Assembly (NCBI GenBank): GCA_027487485.1
Contig: JAIYDN010000049.1
Coordinates: forward strand, 124,001 to 188,000
DNA: 64,000 nucleotides
DNA from: Planctomycetaceae bacterium
GTDB lineage: Bacteria > Planctomycetota > Planctomycetia > Pirellulales > Pirellulaceae
Direction: 5' to 3'
The notes under the pieces: model-generated
Seen by the model: only the letters and a program-made list of their open reading frames with translations
Told to the model about the DNA's origin: nothing
The model's database searches: none
Shown: in pieces, positions 28,201 through 63,056 of the stretch
How positions within the stretch are numbered: the stretch's first letter is position 1
Layout: each line of letters opens with the position of its first letter
Program-made: the position numbers and the translations under genes

Positions 28201-28289
28201 AGACATGCTATCCAAGTTCGAATCAAAGGTCTGCCGTTTGGAGTCATCAAGGTTCTTGAACCGAATGGAAACAGGATCAATTGCGACAT
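25200..28289 (-). CDS. PSCyt1-DUF1549-DUF1553 (PSD1) planctomycete cytochrome-type protein
   Basis: A 1029-residue exported protein. A signal peptide is followed by a planctomycete cytochrome c-like domain with a CxxCH haem-binding motif (HCYSCH, C73-C76-H77) and a likely distal methionine in YQMPPKG (M127). DUF1549 follows at about residues 170-420 (LLRRLYFDLIGLPPT, GERWGRHWLDLVRYAES). DUF1553 lies at about 690-960 (TSRVIVNRIWHHLMGRGIV, DFGVLGQRPTNPELLDHLA, RRSIYLAVRRN). The first ATG has a plausible AAGG upstream; an alternative at 28247 gives a more conventional signal peptide. It is coupled to the DUF1501 gene. Such pairs are numerous in planctomycetes and of unproven function. Confidence 0.92.
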   Translation of the reverse strand: MSQLILFPFGSRTLMTPNGRPLIRTWIACLASLVVAPAFTAIADQPLNPSELNASEKLEFFEKQVRPLLVDHCYSCHSSKSEKLQAGLMLDSRSAMLQGGESGPAIAPGDVENSLLISSVRYDSYQMPPKGKLPAQEIEILERWVAMDAPWPEEASTGTGDDDSKNARPKFDLLKRKSEHWVWQPVQAASVPEVKNQSWPKSSLDSFLLARLEAANLTPSPDASRSALLRRLYFDLIGLPPTLEQSQRFLEDTSPQATERLVDELLKSPRFGERWGRHWLDLVRYAESRGHEFDNDAPNAFQYRDYVIRALNADVPYDQFVAEHIAGDLINPPRLHPEKGFNESILGTGFWFLGEWVHSPVDTRKDESDRFDNMIDVMSKTFLGVTVACARCHDHKFDAISTADYYSLSGFLQSSDFRQVPFESLEHNRAISESLAVLDHRYRQKILDQLAEAGFSLPNIETISEKQQPSILVDYSKINSRDYIQDGFIFGAGPRMIGAPYLEWVEGAPVLRFAVRSSATSDPFWNALEAISEKVAQDQGRLASLPRSGRTLRTPSFVLENGVVACRTRGSGYVVACVDSHRLIAGPLHGETIKPIRAGEDWVELDLRRYQGHRVHLEFTPDVGSQLEITLVTDGSSREARDQWIQQELANENLLKQFAESAKPTVEGKVRDLVVAWADERTKLQSQVMLQSKLAMAMLDGTSEDDHVLIRGNSSKPGNLEPRHFLTAIAGNEPMPIEMGSGRLELAKQINAATNPLTSRVIVNRIWHHLMGRGIVPTTDDFGVLGQRPTNPELLDHLASQFLADGQSIKRMIRTIVLSRAYQVSSQAQPMALEADPKNELWHYRPPKRLEGEAIRDSILMLSGQINLTSFGEPVPIHLTGFMDGRGRPAKGGPLDGAGRRSIYLAVRRNFLSPFMLAFDTPSPFSSMGRRNVSNVPAQALILMNDPFVVEQAMKWAEKISAEPVSTESKVDQMYRLAFARLPSEGEKTVAMDFLTESAGTKDGGSIPVSTWADFAHSLINTKEFIFLP

Positions 28290-28491: not shown

Positions 28492-31400
28492 CTATTCCCA
28501 GTCCTCACCTGCGAATACTGAATCCAACGGCGAGAATTGTTCATTCTCCTTAACGTTACTCCATCGAGCGAGATAAGTCTCAAGCGATTCTACCAAGTCC
28601 AAATCTTGATCATCGATGATCGGGAGCATTGGACCATAAAGCATCGAATCAGCCTCGGAAGAAACGATGAGGTCAACGCCTTCTTCTACCGCAAGTTGCA
28701 GTTGGGCATCGCGATTCACTTTCAGAACCTCGATCATTGGCATCATGACAACATCGATCTGACTGGCTCCGGACGAATCGAAACCTTCACCTTCACCTTC
28801 ACCTTCACCTTCGGAGCCTGCACCTGCCCCGCCGCGGCTATTGATGAAGTTAATCAGTTCTAGAACGTCAAGCGGCCCAACTCCTTGGTCTCCGTCCACA
28901 TCCAAATACGGAGGTGTTGCGAGACCGTTAGGAAGCATTCGCGCTCCATTGAAGTTAATATCATTCACCACAATCAAAACATCGATTGGGGAAATAAACG
29001 TATCAGCATTGACGTCCAGATTGTTCACCGGATTTTGGTAAACCGAACGCACCACATTGATAGTGACATCGGCAATATTGCTGGCCAGTCCATCGTTATC
29101 GGAAACGATGTACTGGAAGGTCGCCAAACCAAGGAACTGTGAATTGGCCGTGAAGGACACCGTACCATTTGCCTGAACCGTAGCTACTCCGGAATCCGGT
29201 CCACCTACGATTCTGACGGAGCTTGGGTTTAAGGTACCATCGCGATCCGAATCATTTCGCAAAACATCAATCACTACCGTTTGACCGCGTCCAGCGACAG
29301 CGGAATCTGGCAACGCAACAGGCGCCGAGTTCACCGTGATGCGAACTCGCCCTTCATTGGAAGCTCGTCCTAACACATCTCGTACTCGGTAGGTGAATGT
29401 ATCCAATCCTCGGTAGTCTGTGTTTGGCCGATACTCTACTTGTCCATTAGCCAAAACGGTGATCGAACCGAAAATCGGAAGCTCACCAATTTCAATGGTT
29501 GCTGGGTTGATAGCGTTGTCCACGTCGGAGTCATTGGCCAGAACGCTGATTACCCTTGGTGTATTGACGGGTACGTTTACCACATCATCAACAGCAACAG
29601 GTGCGTCGTTCACGCCCGTTACCGTTACCGTCACTGTTGCAACTCCACTGACGGCGCCTAATCGATCTCGTACGGTGTACGTGAACGTATCATTGGCAGT
29701 TGCACCACCCAAAAGGCGCTGTAGTTCGACCGCAGCCAATGGGTTGTATGTCAACTGCCCGTTCGAAGCAACCGATACGGCCGCTCCAAGGCTGCTGACG
29801 CTCGAATTGCCATTGATCGATAGCACGTCGTCTGGAAGATCAACATCTTGGTCGTTGATAAGCAACCCTGGTCCAGGGACTGTCAGCACAACATCTTCAC
29901 TAACAGTGTATTGATCTGCCACGGCAACCGGCGCGTCATTGACGGATGTTACCGCAAGTGTAACCGTATGGATCCGCGAGAACGAACCTGTAGGACCGTT
30001 CGGTGCACTTCCCAAACCACTTTGATCGTTGATCTGGAAGGTGATGATCGCTGGACTTCCAACAGGAGTATTCGCGTTCGGTGCAAGCGTGAATTCGATT
30101 TCACCCCTGCCATTGGCCAACTTGTTAACCCTAGGTCCTCCCGTTGCGGTAAACAAAAATTGGTCTTGAGGCCGAACGGTAACAATGAAGTCCGTTGGCT
30201 GAGCAGGCAAACCATTCACCAAACCAAGTTCGTCGTTCGCCAACGCGGGAGCAGGGGCGATACCATCGAAAATTGCAATCTTCGGTGTAGGAGTATCTTC
30301 GTCAATGGTCACGGTCAACGACATCGATCCCGTCGTCGAATTGGTCGTAGGTGCATTGGTGATCGGTGCCACTTGGACCAAGTTAAAGACTGGCGAGTCG
30401 TTCACTGGATCAATGGTAATGGTCAAGGTACTAACAGACGTTTGAACAACACCTTGATCACCAACATCCAACGAATCACGAACGTCTAGGGCTACCAGAA
30501 CATTGCCAGCAATAATGCGATTGTAGTTGGTGCCAGGGGTGTAAACGATTCTTCCATTGGAGACCGACACGCTTTGGCCAGGCCATGTTGGAGAGATAAT
30601 TCTCGCAGCGACAATACTCAGCGTTTGGGCACTTTCGTTGGGTGGACCCACAGTATCGTTCGCAAGGAAGTCAGCTTGAGGCCAAGATTGTGCAACATCC
30701 TCGATGATGGTTCGGGAATCATTGCCGACCACTGGTGGATCATTAACCGGCCGAATGTTAATCGTGACGGTATGAACTAAGGATGTGGAACCTGTGGGTC
30801 CATTCGGGAAGACACCAGCCCCACCGCGATCGTCCATTTGGAACGTTACGACAGCGGGTCCAGATGCCAAGGAATTCACATCCGCACTGAGAGTGAACTC
30901 AAGCTCGGCGGCGCCGCCTGCCAATACATTCACCCGAGGCTGACCAGCCGAAGTGAACAATCCAACATCCTGCGGACGTAGACTAACGATGAAATTGGTT
31001 GGTTGTCCAGGCAGGTTCGAAACTAATCCCAATTCATCCAATGCAGTCGATGGAGCAACGGCAACACCACTAAATATCCTCAAGTTCTGAGTCGGTGCAT
31101 CTTCGTTAATATTGATCGTCATCGACATTTCACCTGTCCCCGCATCGGTTACAGGAGCTGTCGAAATCGGTGGAAGCTCTGCCAAGCTAAAGGATGGAGA
31201 ATCGTTCTCCTCCGTGATCGTCAACGTCAGTATACTCGTTCGAGTTTGGACCGTCCCTTGGTCACCCACATCGAGCGTATCGCGAACATCAAGCTCGATC
31301 AATACATTCCCACCGATCAAACGGTTATAGTTCGGTGCCGGTGTATAGCTGATGACACCATTAACCAAACTCAGGACTTCCCCTGTTCTTGGTGTAACCA

Positions 31401-40400: not shown

Positions 40401-43400
40401 TGGGTTTGGCAACAGTTCCTTCAGCCAACATGGTGGCCCCAATGCCGACCTCAATCCGTCCCCCTTGGCTCTTGATAACGACGCCTGGATCAATCACTAA
40501 GCTGGCGTCGCGTCGCGCTCTTCGTAAATCAGTTTGCCCCAAGGTTTGCATCGAGCCATTGATGAATCGCCCATTATCAACAAAGACCGTGTCGTCTTTG
40601 TTGATGGTCGTTACTAACAAGAAAGAACCTGCATTGTTTTCACGGCGATAAATCTTGCGCGACACATAATCTAGCGTTGCGCTCGGAAGATTCGCTAACT
40701 GAACCGACCGATTGATCTGCACAGACGTAATCAGCACCGTACTCGGCAAGCTCTCTTGTCCGAATCGATCTACATAAGTTATGACGTACTCTAAACCGGT
40801 CGCCGCTGCAAAGCCCGTGCTTCCACCTGTAGGCAAAACTTCATTGAGTGTAACCAACGAGACTTCAGGACCTATTATCTCACCCAGAGATCCACCAGGA
40901 GTTCCTTCGATGATTACGTTTTCACCCATCACGATGGTGATCTCAGAATCGTTAATGCGAGCAGGAACATTCAGCGATTTCAAGCCCGAACCCGCGAGCG
41001 TATCAATGCGTACGAAGAGACCGTTCGTGGAGTTATCGAGAAGCGTGTTGGACCGAATGTCAGGTCCAATCCGTGTGTAATCTGGAATGAAGCTACCACC
41101 ATTTTGATAACGGGGTTCGGTGAACAGTGTCTCTTCGAAGCTATTTGGATCAGCGCTCATCGCTGCATCAGCACTGAACGAAATTCGATTTCCGATAATC
41201 AGCGGCCGAGCCTCCGACAAGTCAATCGGATTGACTGTCTTTGCCAACGCCCCAACACCGACCAATCCTCCACCAAATCGCATGTCTGCATTGGAGATCG
41301 TATTTAGGAAGATACCTTCGCGTTCGCGATCAAACCGTCCTTGTGCCCGATCAAAATCATTGCGAATTTCAATTCCGCCCCAGTTTCCTGGCGCTGGAGT
41401 TGTGGTTTGAAGATTTGCATCTCGACCTAAGCTTTCATCGGAATAGCTTGTGAAGAAAACAGGTCTTTGTGGAGTACCCAAGACCTGAATCGCAGCACCG
41501 CTGCGGTCCGTTGTACTGTCATTGCTACCAACCAAAATACGGCTGCCACCGAACTTAAGAATGGCACCCGAATCGATCATCAACGTGACCCCTCGAGGAA
41601 CGTTTAACGTCGATCCATCGTCCAGGGTTCCAACCGAACCAACGCCAACACCAATTTCATACGCAGCATCATCTCTTAAATTGTTGGGAGTTCGATTGTC
41701 ACCCACCAAGCGAATGATGTCGCCACGTCGTGCGACCGCTGTGGCTTCCACAATTCGATTGAATGGATTAGCCAAAGAACCATTGCGGGTCGCACCTGTA
41801 AAGGCCTTGTCCACAAACAAAGTCCGTGTCGTTGGGTTTGTAGCAGGCGTGAATGCGGTCGCAGCCCGGAACCAAAAATCAAAACTACCCCCAGCTAGAC
41901 CATCTCCATCTCCATCCAAGGCGGTCTTCGGCAAACTTGTGTTGGTGGAGTGGCTTTCAGATAAACCGCTTGCAACAGAACTCTTGAAATCAAGGCGAAG
42001 TTGGTACTGCCCCTGACTTGCCCCACCACTACCTGAATTGGCAATCAGCGGATTGTTGTCTTCGTTGCCCCTGGCAGTAACCGACAAGAAGTACTCGCCC
42101 GGTTCCAAATTCGCCATCACCAAAGAGTCTTCGCTGAAATAATTGTTGTTGGCAGCAACAATGGTCAACGTTCCATTGATCTCACGCTTCATCAACGACA
42201 AATAGGTGTCCAGATTGCTGGCGTTGTTTAACCGCTCCGCAATCGTTTCGGCTCTCAATTCACCTCGTGTACCTGGCGCTACCGTAAATCGGTACAAGTC
42301 GACGTCTCGGTTATCCGGACGAAACATATGTTGCCCATGGACGACATCGTGATCGCCAGGGAATATCTGTTCGAGCGGATTGGCTGGGCTCCCAAGCGCC
42401 CCATTGCTGCCTTGCAGGGTTCCTGGTGGCAAATCGTAAGTGTGCCCCAGGCCCAACAAGTGTCCAATCTCATGGAATGAAGTTTCAAAGAAGCTCTGAG
42501 TTCCAGGAATGTTGGACCCATATCCGAATGTGTTGTCCCAAGCCTCCGAACCGTCCATGATTGCCAATTCGCCACCTAAAGCGGCCAAACCGATCACATC
42601 GCCGGGTCCGCTCTCGCCGCCGTTAGGGGCTAAGTCACCCACGACAATTTTCTTGATTCCATCCCCATCTACCGTCGGACCGAGATGTTCAACTACATCG
42701 ATTCCAAGTTGAGCTGAATAGAACTCAAAAACTTCTCGAACACGTTGCTTCTGCTCCGGAGTGATCGAACTAAACACCGGTCGGTTAGCAATGTCTCTTC
42801 CATAAGACTGGTTATCCATGAAACTGTAGAACACCGTCGTGATCTCAGGATCCGCATCTGCAAATGGGCCGGATTCCGCGCCCAAATGCGTCTCGTCTTG
42901 AATGTCCCGATGTCCAGGTTCAAAATTCGAACCAGGGAAGTCAACAATCAATGGATTAACGGATCGGATTTCTTGCGAAATCACCGTCGAAAACGATCCA
43001 TTCACTGACCCAAGATCTCGCGCTGCGCTCAACACCCCACCTGGATCGTTCGCAACCGTCAGCAAATCAAGATTCGTTGGTGAAACCGGATTAAGCCGAG
43101 TGGCAACAGGATTGTTGGAACCAACTCGCAATCGAAATGTACCAGACCCTTTAATCGTCGGTAGCTGATCCAAATCCTGCTGGAACGTTAGAGTTGCTCT
43201 TCGAAGCACCGAATCATACGTGATGGTCGTTGGCTGAAAGGACTCATCGTCGTTTGTTCCGATGGATTCATTCGTGAAGATCAGATTGTAAAACTGGGGA
43301 TCCACCACCGGCGGATTGGGATTGGAGAATCCCGTTGTCACCGTCTGGTTAAACAACTCGCCGTCATTAAAGTAAACTTCAATGTCTCTGCTGCGCTGGG

Positions 43401-43998: not shown

Positions 43999-44107
43999 AT
44001 TGGATGAACCTTAGAGACTTTGCAGACTGAGAAAAGAAAATGGGGTTGATTACTAGTTAGTTGGAGCCGGTACCTCTGTCGAGATACCGGCTTGAGCGAA
44101 ACACAAT
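43999..44107 (-). promoter_or_regulatory. Spacer between the two giant genes with a hairpin
   Basis: The 109-bp gap holds AGCCGGTA (44065-44072) and TACCGGCT (44085-44092), an 8-bp perfect stem extended by an inner CTC/GAG pair. No T-run follows on the minus strand and I see no clear promoter. The two genes may be co-transcribed, with the hairpin as a partial terminator, processing site or stabiliser. AAGG lies about 9 bp before the downstream ATG. Confidence 0.5.
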
Positions 44108-47100: not shown

Positions 47101-50100
47101 ATACGTGTCGTGCACCATCGAAAGCAAGGGAGGTTGGATATCGGCCTGGAGTGGTGGTTACAGGGTCAGGAGTATCGCCAAAATCTAGCAAGACACCAGG
47201 CATCAAGATGGTGAATTGAGTTTCATTGTTGATGCGGTTGCTCTTCAAGAAATTGTCTGCATTATCTTGAATGCCCCGCAAGAAGAAGCTGCTTACACCA
47301 GCACTGATCGTGGTAGCGTTTTCAACAAACAACGTCGAACCGCCACGCAACTTGGACTGCAAGGTTGTTCGTCCGTCTCGTTGCGCTTGATTGATCGCAT
47401 CGATAATCGCTTTTCGCATCTGCTCTGGTGTGAACGATGCATCTTGAACAAAGCGAATCGGCACTGATCCCCCAGCCACACCTGTCAGACTTAAGCTAGG
47501 AGCGTTTGCAATGGTCGTTGTGAACATCGGGGTATCCAGCAAACGAATACCAGTGGCTGAAACTTCTGTTTGCAGCCCTAATGTCGACGATTCTATTGCC
47601 GCTTTCATAGCCAGAAACACATCGTTCTTTGAGCTCTGGTCGTTGTAACGAACAGGCACTCGTGATGGGTCTCTGCCGTTACCAAGACTTAAATTCTCGA
47701 ATTCAAAAGTGACCGTTACCAGTCCATTGCTGATGATAAAGAACTCTCCATCATTCACGTTGGACCTGCCCGTGGTCAATCTGGAATTCAAGACCGCTAC
47801 GGAGGAACTTGGAAGCAAACCAAGGTCGATTCGCCCGTTACCAATATTGCGAGGTACGATTCCTAGCCCAGCATTCTGAATGATCGGCAACATGACTGTG
47901 GCTAGCTGGTCCGCCGATTGAGCTGCCGTAAATGGAATCACTCGACTGTTCGGTACTGTCGAACCACTTAAGTCTCCATCGAACTCAAAGACAACTGTTC
48001 TACCGTTGTTTGTGATCGAGAAGGTGCTGTCTTCTACCATCACAGAACCCCCGAGGATCGGCAGTTGTAGCAACAAGGTGTCCAGAATATCCAAGGTCGT
48101 GTTACCCTGAACACCTGGCGCCCCAAACAATCCCATGGTAGGAGCGTTTGCTACCGAAATGGTGTGTTCCGTGGTGCCACCAATAGAGATGTTGCCATCA
48201 CCCACATGCACCGGATTCAAGTTCAATCCTGCATTTCGAATCGCATCGGCAACTTTTTGCCCCACTTCCATTTGACTGTCTGTCGGAAGCAGCGATACCA
48301 AAGTGCTGTTCTGTACCGAGCTCACACCGTTGAAATCCAATTCAAACGTGCGGCTGGTTACCACGGACCCGACGGTCCTGGTGATGACAAAGGACTGTCC
48401 ATCCGAAAGCATTCTTGAAACACCGATGGCGAGCAAACCAGAGTTGCCCACAGCTACACTGCCCGTTTTTGGCAATCCAAGGTATACCTTGTTGGAATCA
48501 ACCACTTGCGACGTCAATCTCAACGCAGTCCCATCCAAAGCAGCCTTGATCAAGAGTGCTACCTGAGCTGCCGTTGTTAACTGTGCCACATTAATGCGCA
48601 CGTTCCCATTCGGGTTCGGTGCCGTCGCATTCCGATGGAACTCGAAAACAACCGATAGATTTCCATCGCTCACTTGGAACGTACGTCCGTCGATGATGGA
48701 GCTCGGTGCGGGAACTAATAGCCCCGTGTTCGCCAAAGGTTGCGTCAGAGTTCCCGAATTGCTTGTATCCAACCAAGCACCAGCTCGTGCATTGATCAAC
48801 AATCGTCCCGACGGAGCATCGATCTTCGCTTGGACGTTCGGCACCACGGAAACTGCATTGAGGATCGCGGTTGCGATCTCCGTTCTTGACGACAGAGTTG
48901 TGAATGGAATTCGGGTCGTTCCAGAAATCGTGTTGCTGTTACTGTCAAACTCGAATGTAAAGCTGGTTGTTCCATTGTTCAAGACGAACCTATCGCCATC
49001 AGCGATACCACCCGCGCCGCCACCGGCAAGGGGTACATTGAGCTCTAAGCTCTTCGGAATCTGAAGCCGGTATCCGCTCTCGTATTCAAAGGTGACGTTT
49101 CCACCACCACTATCTCGAACCGTGAAGGTATCTCCATCACGAACATCGTCTCCTGCGGCCGCATCAATTACAAAGCGGTCTTTGTTATTGAGCGTGATGT
49201 CGTAAACTCGCTCGTTCTTCCAAATACCTGCCAACGGCTTCAAAATGATCTCGTTGGTGGTGCGGTTGTACGAGAATACGTAATCAATGCCTTCGGTTAA
49301 AAGTCGACCATTCTCAGTGATGGTGAGAACCGAACCTGGCAAGCGATTACCTCCATCGCGACCGACGATCGAATCATCGTCGATTCCAGTTCCTGCTTGC
49401 AGGTTGGACGACTCGAAGCCATCCTTCAGCTGGATTCGGAACTCAGGATAAACTCCTGAACTCAATCGCAACACCGAAGCCGTTGCATCGATATCAACTC
49501 GCTCCGCATCGTTATCAATAGGATTGATCGTCACGGCCGTTGGCCCAACGAAGTCCGAGCGGTCTGTTGCACCACGGTCCTTGAACACGTTCCCACCCAA
49601 GCCGCTTGGGGGAGCGATATTCGGATCATCGGAACGCAGTTGTCCGCTGTGGTCACGATCCGGAGCCAAGACCGGCGACGGAGCAATTCCTATTGCTTGT
49701 TTGACCGCACGGAATCCAGCACGTTCTGGCAACGAATCGATCGAGCTATCGATCACTTGTGAACTTGATCCTGGCAAGAACTGACCACCAGGTGCATCCA
49801 CAAACAACTTCTCGGTATTTCCAGCCGTGAAGTTAAAGTCAAGGCCGGTGTTTGGTACGTTCGTCGGCGAGCCTTCCACGCCCCGTCCCAGATAAGCAAA
49901 TGCAGCTCTTGTTTCAAAATACTGATACGTGTTTCCACCGACCACCACAGCAGATGGACGCACCGCGTCACCACCAGCCGTAGCTTCTTGAACAATCGGT
50001 GTCTGCACATTCAAGAAGACGTTATTCATGACGGTTGGCGTCGCGCCACCCAACACAAGAATACCACTCTCAGGCAGGATTTGATTGAGGTTGTTGTTCG

Positions 50101-53100
50101 CCCCTGTATCCTTATCGACCTGGATGCTTCCGTTGCTGGTAATGCTGGTCGCATTCCGAACAACGATATACTTTTCGGTCGTACCATTACCACGGGATGT
50201 GACAGGTCCACCATTCGTGCCGTCAAACGTCAGCGACATGGTTCGGTCATGACCCATGTTGCGTTGGAAGTGTCCTCGGAAGGTCGATGAGCCAATAAAT
50301 GCAATCACATCGAACGGCGACTGATCGTTGTTTTGTCCAGCGTCCGCAAACCCTCGATAGCGGCCCAAACCGGCTTGAACCTGAGCGCCACGAATGTTGC
50401 CCGAGTTGATTCCCAAGTCGCCATGCGAACCACCCCCAACATCCATGGTTGGATCGTGGCCGTTGATGCCACCCAAAGCGATCGCTGAAACAGGAGCCAG
50501 CGGATTGGCCAACCCAAAATCTCCATTGTCGAGATTCTGTACGTTCAACATACCAGCCGCATTGATGGCGCCAGCAATCGCCCGAGCCATATCGGTGTAA
50601 TTGTAGTTCGGCCCGATGTAAACAGGAACGTTCCCAGCTTGAACGACTCCAGACCGAGTAAACTCGAACGTTCTCGAGCGGCTGGTGCTGTTCGCAAAGT
50701 CCGCCACTTGATCGATGGTGAAGGTCTCGCCGTCTTGATAAGCAGCAGGGTCCTGGGCCGTGATTACAAAACTCTCAGGCTTCAAAACCTTCAAATTCAA
50801 TGTGTATGCACCGCTCGTTGCGCCGCGGCGTCGATCCGCAAGAGACAAGGGGTCATAGTTAGTGTTGCCGGAGGCACTGATGGCTGCATAGTAAACCCCT
50901 GCAACACTTGCCGTGAAATCAGCGTAGGCATCCCGAGCTTGATTCTCACCTGGTGCGTTTCGATCGTCCGAAGTCGTAGTGTCAGCGCCAGTGGATACAA
51001 TCTGAGCGCGACCAGAAGCATCGAACACCTTCAGGGCGGAATCCAAGGTCGAGGTTGCCGTAGTGTCCACGTCGATGAGAACACGATCTCCCACGTTCAA
51101 GTAAAACTTGTACAAGTCGACATCCGACGATCCGGTCGAAAGAGGATCGGCACGCAATTCCCCATCCACGGTGTAGGTCGCCGTATTGGTTCCCGTTCCC
51201 TGCCAGGTCTCAGCGGCACCTGCGATGGTATCGTTAGAATCCGAATCGATGCGTTCCGCATTAAAGGATGCCCGTCCATCGTTACCGATGATCGTGTTAT
51301 TGACCGCTCGCATGAACGGAGCTGCTTGGTATTCACCCAGTCGGACAATCTGAAGAGGATTTCCTGCTCGACCACGGTATTCAATGAATTGTGGACCTTC
51401 GATAATGATCGAATTCTCGCTTCCCCCGAAGTTCGCAGGATCGGTCGGAAGAACAAACCCGCCCTCTGGCTCAACCCAACTGCGTATAACTTGAGTCGTT
51501 CCGTTCGTTACCAAGGTACTTGCATGGATTGCGTCACGAATCGACTTGACCACTTCATCGGTCGAATATCCCGATGGAGTATCAGGCGTCCTTAGGTAAA
51601 GCTGGCCCGCGTCTTCGCGATAATGGATCGGCACATTGTTCGCACCCCAACCATTTCCACCAACCACGCCGCTTCCAAGAATTCCCCCGCCTGGGTCGGC
51701 GCCCGACAAATCCTCGAACTCAAAGGTGACTCGCTGCCGTCCGTAGTCCAGAACCAACAAGTCCCCATCCGCATGGAAGGACCCGGAATGGTCAGGGAAC
51801 GCTGGGAAATTTTCGTTCTTGGCTATGTCATCGTTCTTGCCAGGAAATGCCGTGATTCGCCAAATCGGGGTTTGCCCCGATACATGGATCCCACCTAAAC
51901 CAGACGAATCCAAAATGTTATTCACGACGACCAAGCCGGGTGCAACACCAGCTCTTTCAGCAACCGAACCGGAACCAACTCCGAATGGAACTGTGTTCAG
52001 TACCGGTAACTTACGTGCATATTGCCCGCCCAAGGACGGAGCTCCCGCTTGGTTCGACAAGAACGTCGGACCGCCGACCAGATACAACGGTTGTGCCGCT
52101 CGTCCATCGGCGTAGTACAAATCCGCAGGACCAGAAAAAATACCGTAGTCGCGAGCGTCCGAAACGGTGGAGGCATTGACGATGAACTGACCTTGGTCGC
52201 GATGAATATTCACATCGCCAATACCCGTAAACACCAACACGCTACCGACTCCGAACAAGTCAGCTCCGCTAACGAATTCGACGTCGCCAACAAAATTCAC
52301 AATGGTGCTGGTTGCAGCTACCGCTGGGAACACGATCGGTCCATCGGTGTTTGCTACTGTAACGCGGAACCTGTTCTGAGTGAACATGGTGTTCACAGCA
52401 TCGCGGAATGCATCTGCTATTTGAACGCGAGTGCTGGTTGCCGAGATCGGTACAGGAGTGTTTCCAAAATCGAAGGTTCCATCGTAAGTGAATTGGAACC
52501 GAACTCGGTTTGAGCCGTCACTCAGTTCAACGACGCTCTTATCAGGAATAACAAGTCCGTCGGAAATTTGAACGGAAGTGCTGTTGGATCCTCGGTACAC
52601 GCTTGAAGTGCTTCGAGTCGCGTTGTCCGACTTGCGGATTTCTACTTGGTAATCGCCATTTCCACCACTAATGACCAGTCGATATCGGCCACGTGCCAGC
52701 GAAACAGGACCAATGAACGGATCGCGTGCTCCCACCGATCCTCGACTCAAGTCCGACAAATCGGAGCCCTTCATCGGACCAGGACGGTCGTCGATGATGT
52801 TGCTATCCAACGATGTAGCAATAATGTTGCCGCCAGGGCCAAACAACGTTGCAGTCAAGTCAGGTCGATTGAGCCCATCGGCGTAATCAACATCGATCGA
52901 GATCGGATATCGCGAAGTTCCACTGGCTCGAATCAAATCGATATCGCCAATGTCGAAAGTCATCACATTGGGTCGACCACCCGAAATCGCACCTGCGACG
53001 CTGATCGCTCCACGGTCCGACATGTGTACATTGCCCACATGGGTAATGTTGTCATCCGTTCCATCGAACATGCTTGCATTGGCTTCACCCGTCAATGGTG

Positions 53101-56100
53101 AATGGAAAGGCAAGCCCGAAGTATAAACGCCGTTGGTTGCGTACCGAATGTCGGCAAACTGGACCGTCGATCCAGGATACTCTTGCTGGTCTCGCAAACG
53201 TACTTGAACCGTGTAAGATCCGCTCGTGAGTCCGGCAGACGAATTCTCGACATTCAAGCTCTTGCTTCGAACTCGGAAGAAATAGCTGCTGGTGCTGCCA
53301 GCAACGCCAGGCAAGAGAATTCGAACAGCCGCATCCTTAGGATTCGTTGTATTGTCGTCCTTGAGCAATCCGGATTCGTTACGACGCGAAGCTGCATTCA
53401 CACGTCGCACAATCGGGTTCGCATTTCGCGAATCGATCAGCGGTGTTGTAAAGATCGTATCCGTACCTGCTTGCTCGTCGGTGCTATCGTCGCTTCGCGC
53501 CAACAAGTCTCCGTTCGCATTCAAGATTTCGATCACGGTATCCAACGAATACCGAGTGCTATCGATGTCGAACCAAACTTCGGTTCCGGCCGTTGCAACA
53601 AAGCTATAAACGTCCTGGTCGTTCGGTTCGCTCAAAACGCCGTTAACGACGTAACCCAAAGGTAGGTTCTCATCGGTCGTGGACTCGTTCGGGGCAAGCG
53701 CACCGAGATACTGAGCAGTAACCGCTGAATCATTTGATCCAGGAGCGACGGTGTCTGGTGGCTCAATTTCCATCGCAACAACCACGTGCCGGTCATTGCT
53801 GAAGGAATCAAACAGCATGCTACGCCAATCCCCAGGTCGTGGAATCGATGCAATGCCGTCGTTGTTTGTATCCGTTTGCGGGCGACCATCTGGTTGTGTA
53901 CCCGAGCCTACGGCGTCGTCACGTAAGCTGGTCAAAACCACAGGGAAGCCTGGCTGACCGATGACTTGAACTGTTCCCCCAACGCGATCGCTAACGCTGC
54001 TCAAACGTCCGGTGGCAGTAAAGCCCGTGCCCCGCTCCTTATCGAAATTGGAGCCCTGGCCTTCCATCTTGATCACCAACGACTCGTTGATAGCGCTTTG
54101 CAATCGAAGCCCACCGCTGTGCTCAAGATTCGAAACGGTGATCGAATCGAACAGAACGTGAACGATGTCGGTGTCATCCCAAACACTTTCGGTCGTCAGA
54201 ACATTTCGCTGAAGATCTCGAACAGCAAGAACTGTTTCATCGCGATTATTGGTGCTGGCGTCACCGCGCACTTCAAGTCCATTGATGCTGTTATTGAACA
54301 ACCGATTCTCTCGGAACAATGGACCACGGTTGGATTCCAAGGTCAAATTCTGATCAACATCGCCACTCTGCCGACCCGAATCGCCACGCAACTTGGCGTC
54401 CATCGAATTAGCATCAATCGTCAACGCACTTCCCGCATTGTTCTGGAAGACGTTTCCAATCACGATAGGCTGAGCACCTCGGATGAACACGGTGGAACCA
54501 CGGCTGGCGTTGTTCCCCAATGGGTAGTTCTCATTGGCTGGCCGACCCAATCGATCGATTGGTCCTTGACCGCCCATTCCATTTGCGTTGTTTTCGAAGG
54601 TCGTATGCGCTAGGCGACTTGTTGCCTGTTGCAGCTCAATCGTGCTGAACGCTTTGAAAGTACCTTCGATTCGGGATGAACCACCGGCGTATGCGACAAC
54701 GCCATGATCCAATTGCAAACTCGAACCAGGTGACGCATAGATACCGCTCCAGTCGCCCGGATTCGCATCCCGATCTTCGTTGAGCCCATTGTTGTTGGTA
54801 TCAAACGTACCGCCAATCCCAAACCGATCATCTTGCTTGCTGGTAAAGACCACACGGCCGCCATCAACACCCTCAGCAAGCAGTTGGGCACTGTGGCCGA
54901 TTTCGATTCTCGCACCTTCTAGCTTAATAATGGTTCCTGGATCGATTGCTAAGGATGCATCCAAGCGAGCTCGAGTGGTTCCCAACGAAGCAAGCTGAAG
55001 CGTACCCGTCAAGTTGGTACCATTATCGATGTAGCTAGTTGCAGACGCATCTTGGATGTCCGCAATAAGACGGAACGGTCCTGAACCGTTGCTTGCGCTT
55101 CGATAAATTCGGCGCGAAGCATAACCTGGCTGCAAGGCTGGAAGGTTGTTCAGATTGATCGAGCGATTTCCTGAAGCATTCGTAATCACGCTGGTTGGTG
55201 ACGAAGCCAAGCTCTCCCGTCCTGCCTCGTCCACCATCACAATCCGATAGGTGTAGCTGCCTGAAGGAAGAACATTCCCGGCGACTAGAGAAGTTGTTAC
55301 GCCGCGAACATCCGGACGATCGCGGAACAATCCCGCTTTGCTATCGCTCGTGGACGAAAGGGTTACTCCCAAATCCTCATAGCTAAAGCTATTGCCATCG
55401 AGCTCAGCCGCCAATACATAAGGCCCGGAACCACTGGCATTACTTCGGTACAGACGTCGACTTACAAACTCGCCCGTTACTCCCGGTAGACCCGTGATGC
55501 TAATCGCAGTCTGTGTTCCGGTCAAAACGACGTTTTGGGTCGGCTCGCTCGGTGGTGTTTCATACCCATTACTATCGACATAAGTAAGCTTGTAGTTGTA
55601 AGTACCAACTGCAAGAATACCACCTGTTCGACCTCGCATCGAAATCAAATTCGATGGCAACGTTGTTTCGTCCAACAAGGAAGCACCTGGCACACCTTGA
55701 ATCACGATGTTTTCGGATACTACGTGAACAATATCCACGTCATCGAATCGACCTGGAACTGTTAGCTCTCGCAATTCACCGCCAGCCACAGTGCTAACTC
55801 GAACGAACAGACCGTTGATCGAGTTCCTGGTCAAAATGTTATCATGGATCCTTGGACCGACCCGGTCGTAATCTGGAGTGAACGATCCTTTGCGCTGATA
55901 CGCTGGTTCGCTGAACAGTGTTTCACGGAAGCTGTCGGGGGTAGCACTCATGGCCGCATCAGCACCCAACGAAATCTTGTTGTAAGAAATCGTGGGTCGC
56001 ATGTCAGCGATCTGGATTGAATTAACAGTTTGTTGAACCGCGTCTACCACAACCGCACTAGAACCACCGTAGCGAATGTCAGCATGATTGACATACTGGC

Positions 56101-59100
56101 GGAAAATTCCTTCATCTTCTAAATCGAATCGACCTGCAGCAGCATCCAGATCTCTCTTGAACAACAATCCGCCCCAATTACCGGCTGCAGGTGTTGTTCT
56201 AGGCGAGTAATTATCGAAACCAATCGTTTCGTCCAACCAGGAAGTAAAGAACACACTTCCCGAAGCCATAGTTCCATCATTCATCTTGATCGCATTGCCT
56301 GCGCGATCCAGCAAAATGGGAGCCCCTAGAACCTGCAACGCACCGCCACTTCGGTCCACGCTCAACGATGAACTACCGACCCCAATTCGGGAGCGATTCA
56401 TCTTAAAGATCGCACCGGCATCGATCATCACGGTAACGCCCTTTGGCACATCCATGGTCGCACCGTCCGACAGCACTTCCCCATTCAACAAGCCAAAACC
56501 AATTTCATAGGCAAGGTTATCAGCGACTGTCTCAAGTCGATTGTCGGAGCCACTATTTCCAACAATACGAACGATGTCACCAGGCACAGCCGCAGCAAAC
56601 GCGTTCGCCACACCAGAACCAGCGATATTGTTAAACGGTCGAGCCAACGAACCGTCTGCGTTTGGACCAGCGGACTTGTCGACAAAAATGGTCTTGCCGG
56701 AAAGATCCACGATCGTCAAACCGGAAGATAGCTGAATGAGTCGCTCGCCTTGCAGAACAATTCTCGCACCATTCACCGTGGCTGTCACCCCAAGCTCGGT
56801 ACGGCTTGCGATAGCGGCTGCCAAGTTAGTAGCAAGCTCGGAAGCCGTGCTGGTAAGTGTGTACGGAATACGGGTGTTTCCGATTCCTACCGTCGAATCA
56901 ACGCTGAATTCAAAACGAACTTCCGCTCCGTTGGCACCACGAATGGTGATGAGCCTTTGCTCGAGATCTGCCGATCCACCTGCGTTGAAATTCAAAGCTC
57001 GATCAAGCGGCCGTGTTTGGAACCAGAAGTTATAAACACCACCAACCACTCCGTCCGAGTCTCCGTCCAATGCCAACGAAACATCGCCGCCAGGACCAGA
57101 AACATCTTGAAGAGAATCGCTGCTATCGGTTTGTGCACGGAACGTTAATCGTAAGTCGTACTTGCCTTCCGTACGTCCGCCAGTTCCAGTGCCCTGAATG
57201 GTAGCATCGTAATCGTCGTTTCCTGTCGACGTGACACCCAAATAATAAACACCCGATGACAAAGTCGTTCGGATCAACGAGTCATCACTGAAGTAGTTGT
57301 CATTCTGCGAGATTAATTCGAGCTCACCACCATTCAAGGTGATTGGCGAATAGGTGATATCTCTGTTCCCGAGGATTGTTGTCTCCGAACCAGATATGCG
57401 TGTGACCTTTACCAAAGATCGAGCAGCGGCGTTGTTGTCGATCGCGGTAAGCATTTGCACCAAAGTAGTCTCACTACCCACGGTGGAATTCAAATCGATC
57501 GTAATCGCATTCGGGAAAGCATTGACGATCGGCAAAGCACCAATCCCTCGATTGCTTCGCGTCACGAACACTTGCAAGTTATTCCCAAGCTTACCAGGCC
57601 GTACGGCTTCGAACTTCACTTGGACCCCTTGTCCAACGCCTAAGTTCGAAAGGGCCGAAGCTTGAACTTGCTTGTATAAAGCAAGTCGGCTATCCAAGGT
57701 GCTACTGTCGGCCAACCGTTCGGCAATCGTCTCGGCAACGAACACACCCGTTCGAGACGCGCCAGTGGCTCCGAAATCGATATCGAAGCGATACAAGTCG
57801 ATGTCGCTTCCTTCAGGTCGATGCAGGTATTGACCATGGATGATGTCTTGGTTGCCTGGGAAAACCGGCTCAAAATTTCGATCCGCGCTGGTCGGGAAAT
57901 TGATGAAACCATTATCCAATCGCAACAACTGAGATGGATCTAAGTTGCCAGCTCGCGACAGGCCCAACATAAAACCAATGCTTGCTGCTGCTGCACGAGT
58001 TAGGTTCTCGCCGTAGTTGTCATTCCAAATATTATTCGCAGAGAACACCGCCAAACTATTTTGATAGGTTGGGTCGATGCGTACACCCCATTGACCATGG
58101 ATCTCAACGTTAGGTCCTGTTCCCAGAGCGTTGACGGTGCCCAAGGCAACCGTGAGACCACTGTTGGCTGTTTCTACAAATTGAACGCCCAGTTGATTCG
58201 ACCAAAGGGTGAACGCTTCCCGGATTCGATCCTTTTGTTTTTCTGTGATCGCATTGAAAACAGGGGTCACACCGTCAAAGCCATAGTTTGCACGGAAATT
58301 GTAATAGACCGTTCGGATACCAGGGAAATCATCTCCGCCGAAGTCCGGATTGATGTGATTTTCCATCTGCTCCGGAACAATTCGTTGCGCTGGATCGTTG
58401 CTGGCGCCAGCAAGATCCAAATCATGAACTTCAGGATCAATCGTCGAACTCAACAACAAGCTTGTCAACGGAACATTTGCCGAGCCAATCGTTCCCAAAT
58501 TGGTTGCGGTATCGAAAGAACTGCCCATTCCGAACAAAGTTACTGGCGAGTAATTGATTGGCCGATTGCTAACCAATCGCGATCCATCACTGCCTGGTTC
58601 CAAAGTTGTCTTGATCAACGCCGAGGACGCTGGATTGGATTCCAACGCCAATATCAAATCATTGACCGTGACCGTGCTTCCACCGTAATTGACACGGATC
58701 GCTTGGCCTGTGACCGTAACGCTTGGAGTTGCCAACACGCCCGTATTGACAAACGATACCGAAATGCCTGAACCAGCTTCTCCAATCGCCTTCGAGGTAA
58801 ACCGGACCTTCGCAACGCCATTGGTGTTCAAATCGGAAATCGCGGTCGCTGTTGCTTCGGATCGAACCGGCGCCATCGGCGTAGTCTCGCGCGTTCCAAT
58901 ACGCAAGCGGAACGTGCTCGAAGGAACCGTTGGGCCTGGAAGCAAGTCGAGATCGTTCGCGAAGACCAACGTCGCTGTGTTGGCCGATGCGTTGTAGCGA
59001 ACGGAGACTGGCAAGAACGCTGGAAGATCGTCCGTGTTGCGGACCGTATCCGAAGTGTAGATCAGTTGGTAGAAAGCTGGATTCTCAACGCTTCGAGCGG

Positions 59101-60118
59101 TAGGCAAACCGTTCGATCCGTTCTCCACGAGCATTTTATCGTTGTCAAAGTACACAACGATCGTATCGCGCTGTTGCGATAGGGAACTGTTCGCCAAACG
59201 AACGATCGGCTGCGGAACTACCGAAGTAACCTGTGGACCAAGATCCAAACGGAAGTCAATGGTCTCCTGGCGAGTGTTTGGATTGGATGGAACAAAGAAC
59301 TCACCTCTTGTGTTTCTCAGTCCGCGAATGCCTCTGCCCGCATCATCAAAACCAAAGACCTCGAGACGGTACATGTCATCCGGAAGATTCTCCGCAAAAC
59401 GCAAAGTCACTTCGTTCTCATTGGGACGATCGCCAATCACAACCGCACCCGGAATGACCATCACGTCATTGCTGGCCGACAGACGCAATGTCCCTATGTT
59501 GGCTGGGTCTACAGCGTTCAAAGGTGTCGTTCCCAAACCACCATTGAGCTTGGCAGTTAATCGGTTTGTCGTCGCATTGGCGGTATTGATCAAATTGACC
59601 AAGCCTTGGGCCGTGACCTGTGCCGTCGGGTTGGAATTCAACGTGATCAAAAGATTATTGTTCGTCATGGCGAGCTGAGCCACGGAGAACGTTCCAAGGT
59701 CGGCTTTGACTACGTTGACCGTGATCGAATCGGCTGCATTCCGAGAGGTCAACTGGATGTCCGCACGACCCGACGTACCGAAGTCGCTAGACACGCTCGG
59801 CAAGGTGAATGTGCCGTCACCCCCAGCTCGTGTTACGCGAATGCCACCCACCGTGGCCTGATCAATGATTTGAGAATCATCAAACCGGAACGTCAGCTCC
59901 CGCGGGGCTATATTGCGAATCACCCCGTTCTCGATCAAATCACTGTTGTTCGGCTGTACACCGATCAACTGAGGACCGACCGCCATCAACTGGCGCGATT
60001 CTAGTGTTTCGAGTAAATGCTGGCGCAGTTGGCTACGTTTAGCCTTGCTGCCCTTTGCATTCTCTGGAGTGTTCGATTTGGTGTTGGAATTCGTGTTGCG
60101 AAGCCGGCGGATGGTCAT
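44108..60118 (-). CDS. Giant exported multidomain protein with a degenerate metzincin region (about 5336 residues)
   Basis: A paralogue of the downstream giant. I chose the ATG at 60118 with GAGGG six bases upstream; TTG 60124 and GTG 60121 are alternatives. A basic leader and ETLESRQLMA are followed by the same architecture. At 712-722 the metzincin site reads ASIGFMLGLSR, so all zinc ligands and the catalytic Glu are gone. It has features the other lacks: three copies of a module ending NRxIxYSP or a related form (about 110-210, 435-530, 825-930), two YVDxxG modules (1495-1590, 1605-1700) and about ten 'FEF' modules, six of them in tandem at 3650-4295. GEVED (4310-4480), about six Ig-like repeats (4490-5140), a dockerin-like segment (NADTFVSPIDVL, NGDNSINALDVL) and a Gly-Glu run follow. 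I noticed no cysteine. Likely a structural or adhesive partner. Confidence 0.9.
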   Translation of the reverse strand: MTIRRLRNTNSNTKSNTPENAKGSKAKRSQLRQHLLETLESRQLMAVGPQLIGVQPNNSDLIENGVIRNIAPRELTFRFDDSQIIDQATVGGIRVTRAGGDGTFTLPSVSSDFGTSGRADIQLTSRNAADSITVNVVKADLGTFSVAQLAMTNNNLLITLNSNPTAQVTAQGLVNLINTANATTNRLTAKLNGGLGTTPLNAVDPANIGTLRLSASNDVMVIPGAVVIGDRPNENEVTLRFAENLPDDMYRLEVFGFDDAGRGIRGLRNTRGEFFVPSNPNTRQETIDFRLDLGPQVTSVVPQPIVRLANSSLSQQRDTIVVYFDNDKMLVENGSNGLPTARSVENPAFYQLIYTSDTVRNTDDLPAFLPVSVRYNASANTATLVFANDLDLLPGPTVPSSTFRLRIGTRETTPMAPVRSEATATAISDLNTNGVAKVRFTSKAIGEAGSGISVSFVNTGVLATPSVTVTGQAIRVNYGGSTVTVNDLILALESNPASSALIKTTLEPGSDGSRLVSNRPINYSPVTLFGMGSSFDTATNLGTIGSANVPLTSLLLSSTIDPEVHDLDLAGASNDPAQRIVPEQMENHINPDFGGDDFPGIRTVYYNFRANYGFDGVTPVFNAITEKQKDRIREAFTLWSNQLGVQFVETANSGLTVALGTVNALGTGPNVEIHGQWGVRIDPTYQNSLAVFSANNIWNDNYGENLTRAAAASIGFMLGLSRAGNLDPSQLLRLDNGFINFPTSADRNFEPVFPGNQDIIHGQYLHRPEGSDIDLYRFDIDFGATGASRTGVFVAETIAERLADSSTLDSRLALYKQVQASALSNLGVGQGVQVKFEAVRPGKLGNNLQVFVTRSNRGIGALPIVNAFPNAITIDLNSTVGSETTLVQMLTAIDNNAAARSLVKVTRISGSETTILGNRDITYSPITLNGGELELISQNDNYFSDDSLIRTTLSSGVYYLGVTSTGNDDYDATIQGTGTGGRTEGKYDLRLTFRAQTDSSDSLQDVSGPGGDVSLALDGDSDGVVGGVYNFWFQTRPLDRALNFNAGGSADLEQRLITIRGANGAEVRFEFSVDSTVGIGNTRIPYTLTSTASELATNLAAAIASRTELGVTATVNGARIVLQGERLIQLSSGLTIVDLSGKTIFVDKSAGPNADGSLARPFNNIAGSGVANAFAAAVPGDIVRIVGNSGSDNRLETVADNLAYEIGFGLLNGEVLSDGATMDVPKGVTVMIDAGAIFKMNRSRIGVGSSSLSVDRSGGALQVLGAPILLDRAGNAIKMNDGTMASGSVFFTSWLDETIGFDNYSPRTTPAAGNWGGLLFKRDLDAAAGRFDLEDEGIFRQYVNHADIRYGGSSAVVVDAVQQTVNSIQIADMRPTISYNKISLGADAAMSATPDSFRETLFSEPAYQRKGSFTPDYDRVGPRIHDNILTRNSINGLFVRVSTVAGGELRELTVPGRFDDVDIVHVVSENIVIQGVPGASLLDETTLPSNLISMRGRTGGILAVGTYNYKLTYVDSNGYETPPSEPTQNVVLTGTQTAISITGLPGVTGEFVSRRLYRSNASGSGPYVLAAELDGNSFSYEDLGVTLSSTSDSKAGLFRDRPDVRGVTTSLVAGNVLPSGSYTYRIVMVDEAGRESLASSPTSVITNASGNRSINLNNLPALQPGYASRRIYRSASNGSGPFRLIADIQDASATSYIDNGTNLTGTLQLASLGTTRARLDASLAIDPGTIIKLEGARIEIGHSAQLLAEGVDGGRVVFTSKQDDRFGIGGTFDTNNNGLNEDRDANPGDWSGIYASPGSSLQLDHGVVAYAGGSSRIEGTFKAFSTIELQQATSRLAHTTFENNANGMGGQGPIDRLGRPANENYPLGNNASRGSTVFIRGAQPIVIGNVFQNNAGSALTIDANSMDAKLRGDSGRQSGDVDQNLTLESNRGPLFRENRLFNNSINGLEVRGDASTNNRDETVLAVRDLQRNVLTTESVWDDTDIVHVLFDSITVSNLEHSGGLRLQSAINESLVIKMEGQGSNFDKERGTGFTATGRLSSVSDRVGGTVQVIGQPGFPVVLTSLRDDAVGSGTQPDGRPQTDTNNDGIASIPRPGDWRSMLFDSFSNDRHVVVAMEIEPPDTVAPGSNDSAVTAQYLGALAPNESTTDENLPLGYVVNGVLSEPNDQDVYSFVATAGTEVWFDIDSTRYSLDTVIEILNANGDLLARSDDSTDEQAGTDTIFTTPLIDSRNANPIVRRVNAASRRNESGLLKDDNTTNPKDAAVRILLPGVAGSTSSYFFRVRSKSLNVENSSAGLTSGSYTVQVRLRDQQEYPGSTVQFADIRYATNGVYTSGLPFHSPLTGEANASMFDGTDDNITHVGNVHMSDRGAISVAGAISGGRPNVMTFDIGDIDLIRASGTSRYPISIDVDYADGLNRPDLTATLFGPGGNIIATSLDSNIIDDRPGPMKGSDLSDLSRGSVGARDPFIGPVSLARGRYRLVISGGNGDYQVEIRKSDNATRSTSSVYRGSNSTSVQISDGLVIPDKSVVELSDGSNRVRFQFTYDGTFDFGNTPVPISATSTRVQIADAFRDAVNTMFTQNRFRVTVANTDGPIVFPAVAATSTIVNFVGDVEFVSGADLFGVGSVLVFTGIGDVNIHRDQGQFIVNASTVSDARDYGIFSGPADLYYADGRAAQPLYLVGGPTFLSNQAGAPSLGGQYARKLPVLNTVPFGVGSGSVAERAGVAPGLVVVNNILDSSGLGGIHVSGQTPIWRITAFPGKNDDIAKNENFPAFPDHSGSFHADGDLLVLDYGRQRVTFEFEDLSGADPGGGILGSGVVGGNGWGANNVPIHYREDAGQLYLRTPDTPSGYSTDEVVKSIRDAIHASTLVTNGTTQVIRSWVEPEGGFVLPTDPANFGGSENSIIIEGPQFIEYRGRAGNPLQIVRLGEYQAAPFMRAVNNTIIGNDGRASFNAERIDSDSNDTIAGAAETWQGTGTNTATYTVDGELRADPLSTGSSDVDLYKFYLNVGDRVLIDVDTTATSTLDSALKVFDASGRAQIVSTGADTTTSDDRNAPGENQARDAYADFTASVAGVYYAAISASGNTNYDPLSLADRRRGATSGAYTLNLKVLKPESFVITAQDPAAYQDGETFTIDQVADFANSTSRSRTFEFTRSGVVQAGNVPVYIGPNYNYTDMARAIAGAINAAGMLNVQNLDNGDFGLANPLAPVSAIALGGINGHDPTMDVGGGSHGDLGINSGNIRGAQVQAGLGRYRGFADAGQNNDQSPFDVIAFIGSSTFRGHFQRNMGHDRTMSLTFDGTNGGPVTSRGNGTTEKYIVVRNATSITSNGSIQVDKDTGANNNLNQILPESGILVLGGATPTVMNNVFLNVQTPIVQEATAGGDAVRPSAVVVGGNTYQYFETRAAFAYLGRGVEGSPTNVPNTGLDFNFTAGNTEKLFVDAPGGQFLPGSSSQVIDSSIDSLPERAGFRAVKQAIGIAPSPVLAPDRDHSGQLRSDDPNIAPPSGLGGNVFKDRGATDRSDFVGPTAVTINPIDNDAERVDIDATASVLRLSSGVYPEFRIQLKDGFESSNLQAGTGIDDDSIVGRDGGNRLPGSVLTITENGRLLTEGIDYVFSYNRTTNEIILKPLAGIWKNERVYDITLNNKDRFVIDAAAGDDVRDGDTFTVRDSGGGNVTFEYESGYRLQIPKSLELNVPLAGGGAGGIADGDRFVLNNGTTSFTFEFDSNSNTISGTTRIPFTTLSSRTEIATAILNAVSVVPNVQAKIDAPSGRLLINARAGAWLDTSNSGTLTQPLANTGLLVPAPSSIIDGRTFQVSDGNLSVVFEFHRNATAPNPNGNVRINVAQLTTAAQVALLIKAALDGTALRLTSQVVDSNKVYLGLPKTGSVAVGNSGLLAIGVSRMLSDGQSFVITRTVGSVVTSRTFELDFNGVSSVQNSTLVSLLPTDSQMEVGQKVADAIRNAGLNLNPVHVGDGNISIGGTTEHTISVANAPTMGLFGAPGVQGNTTLDILDTLLLQLPILGGSVMVEDSTFSITNNGRTVVFEFDGDLSGSTVPNSRVIPFTAAQSADQLATVMLPIIQNAGLGIVPRNIGNGRIDLGLLPSSSVAVLNSRLTTGRSNVNDGEFFIISNGLVTVTFEFENLSLGNGRDPSRVPVRYNDQSSKNDVFLAMKAAIESSTLGLQTEVSATGIRLLDTPMFTTTIANAPSLSLTGVAGGSVPIRFVQDASFTPEQMRKAIIDAINQAQRDGRTTLQSKLRGGSTLFVENATTISAGVSSFFLRGIQDNADNFLKSNRINNETQFTILMPGVLLDFGDTPDPVTTTPGRYPTSLAFDGARHVSNATALRLGPTISSELDGSPTPKADADVGDDGVTFQFQGSSKPLFNRNVDTTVTVTLTQPGIVDGWIDFNADGDWTDAGENVLSGIVFTESTLSQTFQIRVPANAPVPTVSTNSFARFRASTAGNTLPTGLALDGEVEDYLVRIVPGIPPVGTSDSYSMNEDQAGGYVTTDAFGTVTPLNSVDNGVLANDLSRDGRPLLARVLTPPQNVVANSFVFNPDGTFTYVPTPHYFGQDTFVYLSYVNIDLAENEIIESLVPTTVTFTIRPVNDVPTASNFSQIIDEDVPLTLTTQQVIALSTALPGPANESNQLLSLSLPSGASTQGGTVSIVNGAILYTPQQDFSGEDTFTFTLTDNGLTGTNFDPLSITRTVTITVRDKNDAPIVTPKSFAIDEDESDVRSTNFYINNDTAGPTPELLPPNAQTITFTSVEPRSEFGGTVSLANGQITYRPAPDFNGTDRIYYTITDNGTSQGLADPQSSRGTVTVTVRAVEDNPRVSAQFGTLNMVEDAPARVLSFANFFFDPDVIPNGEVLTYSILSNNNPGLVEPTLAGGNVTIQPKPDQNGTAVIVFEARDNTGRFITNTLTVIVSEADDNPRLVSPLPNLNVNEDATIPPITLSPQYFFDPDILNGDALTFSVTTSNEGLVSAAIANGQLRLTLVPNASGIATITVRAVDADGNAVEDSFDVNIEAVNDAPRVVNDLFYQTRQTVDLRTTDARGTLTTTVQNDNGVLANDSDIEGNTFTARLKTAPAFGTVTINPDGTFIYSPRNAVQGAIDSFEYEAVDSLGAVSLPGRVNITITAPPPARHQNQQLNQDVNADTFVSPIDVLLVVNFINFSGQSSISVIGLPDPPPYRDVNGDNSINALDVLDLINYINTRGNGEGEGEGSSYVGLTVDSTSVAAPLVNSGSLGWSADVMRSGPVLGTTMQVVAEGGRLANAAMPWTGKPEIAATPSLAEYLASFGNESEEEAERIAKLVGTGSPKEDYESLDSFFAEAFGQ
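47240..49170 (-). repeat. Tandem block of about six 'FEF' modules in the second giant
   Basis: Each unit of roughly 100-130 residues follows the pattern DG-x2-F-x-[IV]-x-[ND]-G-x3-V-x-FEF[DE], then a Gly/Asn turn, a short strand such as IPF, and an A-x2-I-x2-A-[IA] helix. Clear starts encode DGDRFVLNNG, DGRTFQVSDG, DGQSFVI, EDSTFSITNNG and DGEFFIISNG. Further single copies occur elsewhere in both giants. Confidence 0.75.
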
Positions 60119-60207
60119 CACCAACCCTCAGTGCAAAGGTAGCCAGGAACCCCTCGCAGCAAACAATCGCTGCAAGGCTGTAAAAAAGGGCCTAGTCTCC
60201 AGGCATC

Positions 60208-62651: not shown

Positions 62652-63056
62652 TGCTGGCTCTACCAACGCTGCTCTTTGGAGTGTTCGTAACCTTCCTACT
62701 ATCGCACACTTTGGGTGTACCTTTTTCTTCCTTTCATGAACCGCTTTTCCACCGTCGGTAGGTGCTTGGTTCATCAAGGAATTCCTTGTCATTGCCTCGT
62801 ACTTTAACCAGTTATCGACGTTTTGGGCCAACCCTCAACAAATACAACAAAGATAGAATTCTATTAAGCTTAGAGACTTCCGTACGTCCACCGCGAAGAA
62901 TCGAACACCGCGGAGAATCGAATGTTGAATGTCCTCAAACCATGGCGGTAAGCTTGATACAAAAAAGCCAACTGACGTTACAATTCGTTTTCAAAGCGAA
63001 GGGGACCCCCAACCCGACGTGACGCATAACCACTTTGCAGCGGAGAACACGTTACC
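62652..63056. other. Intergenic region upstream of DUF2237 and kbl
   Basis: About 400 bp between divergent genes, partly covered by a doubtful N-terminal extension of the HAD frame. It contains a 17-bp tandem repeat (62889-62922) and a weak promoter candidate for DUF2237 (TTGATA at 62954 and TACAAT at 62979, spacer 19 bp, longer than usual). Confidence 0.4.
62889..62922. repeat. Tandem 17-bp direct repeat
   Basis: CACCGCGAAGAATCGAA is followed at once by CACCGCGGAGAATCGAA, one difference in 17. It lies in the divergent region and could be a tandem regulator site. Confidence 0.65.

Follow-up and report, generated by a model that had tools for sequence, protein, structure and literature searches.

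Gene B, which precedes gene A in a tandem pair of giant planctomycete genes, probably belongs to an old lineage whose protease domain lost its zinc site, kept its metzincin fold for a non-catalytic use and stands first in a tandem array. Both genes lie in the window, i.e., the whole stretch of 64,000 nucleotides that was analyzed, and their features are collected in Table 1. The source of the pair is a freshwater Pirellula-like bacterium. On our reading, A and B belong to a large planctomycete family of giant, presumably exported proteins. Their layout is an N-terminal export motif, a matrix metalloprotease (MMP)-like metzincin domain, a PPC-like sandwich, a long stretch of repeats, cadherin/Ig repeats, GEVED and dockerin. 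The zinc site of the B lineage would have been lost before the genera split, and the fold kept under strong purifying selection since. B heads an old tandem array, and the next gene (here A) is a family member that is active-looking or dead depending on the lineage.

Table 1. Coordinates of genes A and B and of their domains and sites in the window.
Feature	Position	Strand	Basis
Gene A, giant exported protein with intact zinc motif	28492..43998	-	ORF, 5168 aa
Dockerin type I segment of A	28840..29016	-	27.5 bits, cut-off 22.9
A residues 311-700, metzincin-like domain and PPC-like beta-sandwich	41899..43068	-	Model, pLDDT 78.6
A residue 529, Gln at Met-turn position	42412..42414	-	Alignment
A residues 509-519, HEIGHLLGLGH	42442..42474	-	Sequence and alignments
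Spacing from B stop to A start, 109 bases	43999..44107	-	ORF ends
Gene B, giant exported protein with dead zinc site	44108..60118	-	ORF from ATG
Dockerin type I segment of B, partial span	44459..44548	-	46.4 bits, cut-off 22.9
B residues 526-1040, pseudo-metzincin, inserted repeat module and PPC-like domain	57005..58549	-	Model, pLDDT 76.0
B residues 714-724 (from TTG), ASIGFMLGLSR	57953..57985	-	Sequence and alignments

Domain layout, zinc sites and predicted folds of A and B

The open reading frames and coordinates proposed for A and B from the letters alone were recovered unchanged. The longest frame of B spans 44108-60124 (minus strand) and starts with TTG, with an ATG two codons later at 60118. 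When the two proteins were compared by blastp, their main segments were collinear between A4/B14 and A5055/B5217, with identities of about 30-44%, and extra weak, out-of-order segments appeared among the repeats. The proposed common domain order therefore holds for the order itself but not for every part, because both proteins carry long private insertions (about 1917-2852 in A; about 2750-3354 and about 3761-4216 in B). Pfam matches to GEVED, cadherin/Ig repeats and dockerin were common to both, with Dockerin_1 above its curated score in each. PPC exceeded its cut-off in A only and gave a weaker match in B. The planctomycete export motif gave a sub-threshold Pfam match in B only and was seen by eye in A. 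Together, the motif, the dockerin and the repeats suggest that both products are exported and positioned at the surface. A module of ~100 residues was present in 10 copies in B (residues 1049-4249) and 2 copies in A (2931-3522), partly inserted in loops, and Pfam reported no family there.

As originally read, HEIGHLLGLGH stands at A509-519 and ASIGFMLGLSR at B714-724 (B712-722 when counted from the ATG), and the shared PGxxDxxHGQ follows at A547-556 and B756-765. The catalytic letters H, E, H, H of A thus read A, S, F, R in B, and the zinc motif HExxHxxGxxH is present in A and absent from B. A profile of 17 B-type sequences matched the A-type profile with a probability of 100 and an E value of 2.9e-77, and the B helix aligned on the HEIGH of A free of gaps. 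A and B are homologous paralogues, as had been supposed. When the profile of A and its relatives was searched against solved structures, it matched MMP-1 (E 2.4e-8); a B-only profile gave no match to solved structures even at E 10. The matrixin score of A itself (Pfam M10; 21.0-21.4) was under the cut-off of 24, and 33 of 41 relatives matched M10. B-type sequences also share invariant positions of their own, e.g., W427, Q434 and G448 (A numbering).

The Met-turn methionine is missing from A, where the aligned residue is Q529; among 110 aligned domains with an intact motif (see below), this residue was M in 71 and Q in 33. Because of Q529, we call A metzincin-like rather than file it as a certain metzincin, and its own zinc-dependent peptidase activity is uncertain. 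The earlier description of A as protease-competent goes further than its zinc motif and predicted fold allow.

The fold was modeled with AlphaFold2 for A residues 311-700 (pLDDT 78.6, pTM 0.67) and B residues 526-1040 (pLDDT 76.0, pTM 0.64). The strand and helix order of metzincins was seen in both models, and the matrix metalloprotease fold is predicted to be kept in both domains. In Foldseek, the best matches of the A model included MMP-8 (4.4e-6) and karilysin (2.1e-5), and the top matches of the B model were karilysin (1.5e-5), MMP-12 and MMP-13. VIA-align superposed the B model on MMP12 with Z 13.5 and rmsd 2.9 over 142 residues; about 7/33 rows of the alignment behind the B model were B-type, so its fold leans on A-type rows. 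The fold-library matches of the PPC-like part, the Clostridium enterotoxin and the ColG collagen-binding domains, are taken to show no more than a common sandwich fold. The MMP-1 profile match and the predicted fold agree with the metzincin-like domain of the original prediction. Its view of B is likewise supported, in that the zinc site is gone and the fold is predicted to be retained.

Distribution and tandem order

With A as query, the domain was found in 193/241 genomes of the bacterial family, and with B as query at a stricter cut-off in 185/241. Among 392 genomes sampled evenly across the phylum, 20 carried the full-length domain, all in the same class. We aligned 287 domains at loci taken from among the matches listed, with each gene counted once (L001, L003, L004, L034, L061, L332-L337, and L355 were dropped as second copies). 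A motif was scored as intact when positions 509, 510, and 513 were H, E, and H and position 519 was H or D, and otherwise as dead. This gave 110 intact and 177 dead rows, which is not a population frequency, as domains entered the sample through their similarity to A or B. Homologues without a conserved HEIGH, named in the original prediction as evidence against it, were plentiful (177 of the 287 rows). 'Metalloprotease' labels on such genes may be misleading in over half of the copies examined here. Another dead type, RGxGxxxGIG[ND], formed a clade of its own (16 rows) and was located directly after B in several genera; it was seen in G150, G151, G152, G153, G155, G157, G161, G170, G172, G190, and others.

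Tandem order was read from the listed places of B-type and other members on one contig. B was followed by another giant of the family on the same strand in 54 of 58 judgeable genomes. This order was found in 13/13 genomes of the genus, in 17 genomes outside it (G001, G006, G009, G011, G012, G013, G015, G017, G074, G109, G142, G143, G146, G162, G206, G212, and G239), in 23/24 genomes of a further set, with the other copy upstream in the exception (G196), and in G225. No partner was found after B in G066 and G189 (the B type of G189 was not placed in the tree), nor in G181, with only ~6 kb of contig left; the remaining B contigs in the set with these four genomes were too short to judge. The spacing from B to its partner was 16-26 kb, which equals one giant gene. 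When full spans were read in G082, G006, and G206, each held two long open reading frames, separated by 103, 341, and 287 bases, respectively. In addition, the gene before the A-type domain carried the C-terminus of B in 15 named loci, including one of 'Candidatus Laterigemmans baculatus' (L269). Three family members in a row were observed in G108, G145, G147, G166-G168, and G216.

B was dead in all 53 of the 54 ordered genomes in which it was read (the B of G011 was left out). The motif of the partner was intact in 31 and dead in 22 of 53 genomes read (all but G225). These counts bear on the possibility that A is an active surface metalloprotease, with B regulating it, presenting its substrate or forming a heteromer with it. 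Such a pairing would agree with the common orientation of the two genes, with their spacing of 109 bases, in which no promoter- or terminator-like site was found, with the age of the gene order, with the match of the A-type profile to MMPs and with the 31 partners that have the motif. However, these 31 include cases found by similarity to A and are biased to intact partners, and the 22 dead ones include three genomes of this genus (G091, G099, and G105) in which B is kept. In genus g50, moreover, B was followed by a dead copy in 7/7 sampled genomes, and A of the window has Gln at the Met-turn. Because the partner is dead in 22/53 genomes, an obligatory protease/pseudoprotease pair appears unlikely, and the fixed enzyme/pseudoenzyme pair of the original prediction does not hold as a rule. 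We consider this explanation as a whole improbable. The synteny of B and its partner may stem from shared regulation and not from physical contact.

Age of the loss and constraint on the dead domain

The preferred explanation, an old and dead B clade with the fold retained, was examined on trees computed with the motif columns left out. The B-type clade comprised 96 rows from 21 genera, and 0/96 kept the zinc motif. Its support was 99 with 248 rows, 86 with 287 rows and 100/100 in a 57-row mixture-model tree with 22 B rows. The loss of the zinc site in the B lineage probably predates the divergence of the genera of the family. A single loss for B, C (a third paralogue) and D together was only weakly rejected (p-AU 0.033). 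The losses within the A lineage (G090/G099; G091/G104/G105) occupied positions on the tree separate from B, C, and D, and catalysis appears to have been lost independently there as well, in 5/23 genomes of the genus.

Within the genus, A-position copies were found in 23/27 genomes, of which 18 were intact and 5 dead (HEIGQSLGLDN in G091, G104, and G105; REIGHLLGLGD in G090 and G099). This count includes G096 and G107, where the copy counted as A belongs to another lineage (46% and 45% identity). The genomes without A (G089, G092, G093, and G094) are 76-82% complete. B was found in 26/27 genomes and intact in none; in G084, which is without B, the N-terminal part of B would fall beyond the end of the contig of A. 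C was found in 27/27 genomes and was likewise intact in none. In the genome of the window, C lies on another contig (G000:C15:223650-224810, L002) in a 4802-aa frame and reads RGIGVLLGLGN. One A copy (G088:C198:22867-23726, L065) was split over two frames in the domain, reflecting a frameshift or a sequencing error.

The dN/dS ratios of the domain were calculated by the Nei-Gojobori method for 19 pairs, with some synonymous distances near saturation. Between the genome of the window and its nearest relative (G101), the ratios were 0.044 for A, 0.018 for B and 0.048 for C. They ranged from 0.018 to 0.104 in 10 B pairs, from 0.033 to 0.065 in 6 A pairs (0.033, 0.058, and 0.065 in the three dead-A pairs) and from 0.014 to 0.073 in 3 C pairs. 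Mean identities over 190 genome pairs with all three paralogues were 59.6 (A), 63.6 (B), and 76.1 (C). The apparently better conservation of B than of A was due to G096 and G107, with their A copy of another lineage; in the 153 pairs without them, A and B were equal (64.5 and 64.0), with C at 75.9. C was the best conserved of the three in the genus, and its identity was above that of A in 141/153 genome pairs. Judging from the dN/dS ratios and mean identities, the dead domains are at least as constrained as the intact one, and the dead domain of B is under strong purifying selection. This argues that its fold does a non-catalytic job. Selection would thus keep a non-catalytic function of the B domain, and does not by itself tell which.

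The same data bear on the idea of a generic structural spacer in all members, intact ones included, with the zinc motif as a freely lost relic. Conservation is about the same in dead and intact copies, B does not require an intact copy beside it, and at least 16 changes between the intact and dead states occurred on the 287-row tree, all as expected of a spacer. However, all four catalytic letters were kept in 110/287 rows, and 16 changes are far below the 81-98 needed in 20 label shuffles. Inheritance or selection has therefore preserved the motif for long spans, and we regard a mere spacer as improbable, too. The history originally proposed, in which one copy lost catalysis after a tandem duplication, has, if recent, next to no chance of being correct: A and B are adjacent paralogues with the same domain order, but they are only 30-44% identical, forcing the A and B of the genus together cost 268 log-likelihood units (p-AU 2.7e-39), which rules out B as a recent tandem copy that decayed, and the B clade is wholly dead across 21 genera, with a dN/dS of 0.018 in the dead domain.

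Probable non-catalytic use, related systems and genomic surroundings

The explanation that fits best is that the fold is conserved for a use other than catalysis, whether binding or structural. Near the N-terminus of the extracellular giant, the B domain would most likely act as a module for binding or structure. The original suggestion of a binding or structural partner still stands; a binding role of this domain is likely, and the B and A products may meet. In a broader reading, on which our judgment is evenly divided, the MMP fold is a standing binding module of the giant surface proteins of the Pirellulaceae: the first gene of the array is a pseudo-metzincin in every genome read, losses recur elsewhere, and dead copies are conserved as well as living ones. 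If true, this would make it the equivalent in bacteria of the pseudopeptidase ADAMs. With its known fold, lost active site and dN/dS near 0.02, the B domain offers a cloneable piece of ~300 residues for binding tests. Hardly any functions of giant planctomycete proteins have been described. The tree, with its repeated changes of state, makes it possible to study at what point and for what reason a protease fold outlives catalysis.

The closest likeness is to the matrixins (M10) and karilysin, with which the domain shares the zinc motif in A, the MMP-1 profile match, the Pfam M10 matches among relatives and the predicted fold of A and B. Unlike these, it lies inside a 5,000-residue dockerin protein; A is under the M10 cut-off (21.4 vs 24) and has the Gln at its Met-turn, and B is without zinc ligands. 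In ADAM22, ADAM23, ADAM2, and others, the zinc residues are lost and the metzincin fold is kept for binding without catalysis, in a family that also has active members (PMC11266112). These are animal M12 proteins, whereas the A/B family is bacterial, MMP-like, giant and in tandem arrays, and its binding role is proposed here. Giant genes or huge proteins of planctomycetes resemble A and B in size, taxon, dockerin and Big_9/Cadherin repeats (PMC5177795 and PMC11573180); the available portions of these two papers name no metzincin domain, loss or tandem order. Searches of the open-licence literature on metzincin pseudoproteases, giant dockerin proteins, and planctomycete pseudoenzymes or metzincins gave no description of the A/B family.

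A hypothetical 'planctosome', i.e., a cohesin/dockerin complex with M12B and M14 peptidases, also joins dockerin with a metalloprotease-type domain in planctomycetes (PMC6461901). There, separate peptidases dock onto cohesins, whereas in A and B the domain is built into the giant. Cohesin exceeded the cut-off in 5/27 genomes of the genus, the genome of the window being among those with matches, and none was found at E 0.01 in the single-contig genome G082. Cohesin docking as a general mechanism is not supported across the genus. The cohesin matches in the genome of the window (G000:C67:53045-54025 and G000:C41:1075-2064) lie in frames of 11,482 and 11,829 residues.

A PSCyt1/DUF1549/DUF1553 gene and a DUF1501 gene are located just downstream of A (23731-28289, minus strand). 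A common operon with them was rejected, since the closest DUF1501 copies were far from the pair in G082, G142, G162, G206, and G209, in a comparison that scored six candidates per genome and could miss a weaker neighboring copy. Upstream of B are a GH16-type glycoside hydrolase (61096-61890, plus strand) and a HAD-like hydrolase (61881-62831, minus strand). A short acidic tail after the dockerin is common to several giants; a universal C-terminal tail was dismissed, as its motif matched 1 of the 28 tails read among the 30 dockerin loci of the genome. Dockerin matches were also present in the first 450 bases of six contigs of G000 (C36, C48, C49, C63, C75, and C82), as if the assembly had broken at near-identical dockerin-coding repeats.
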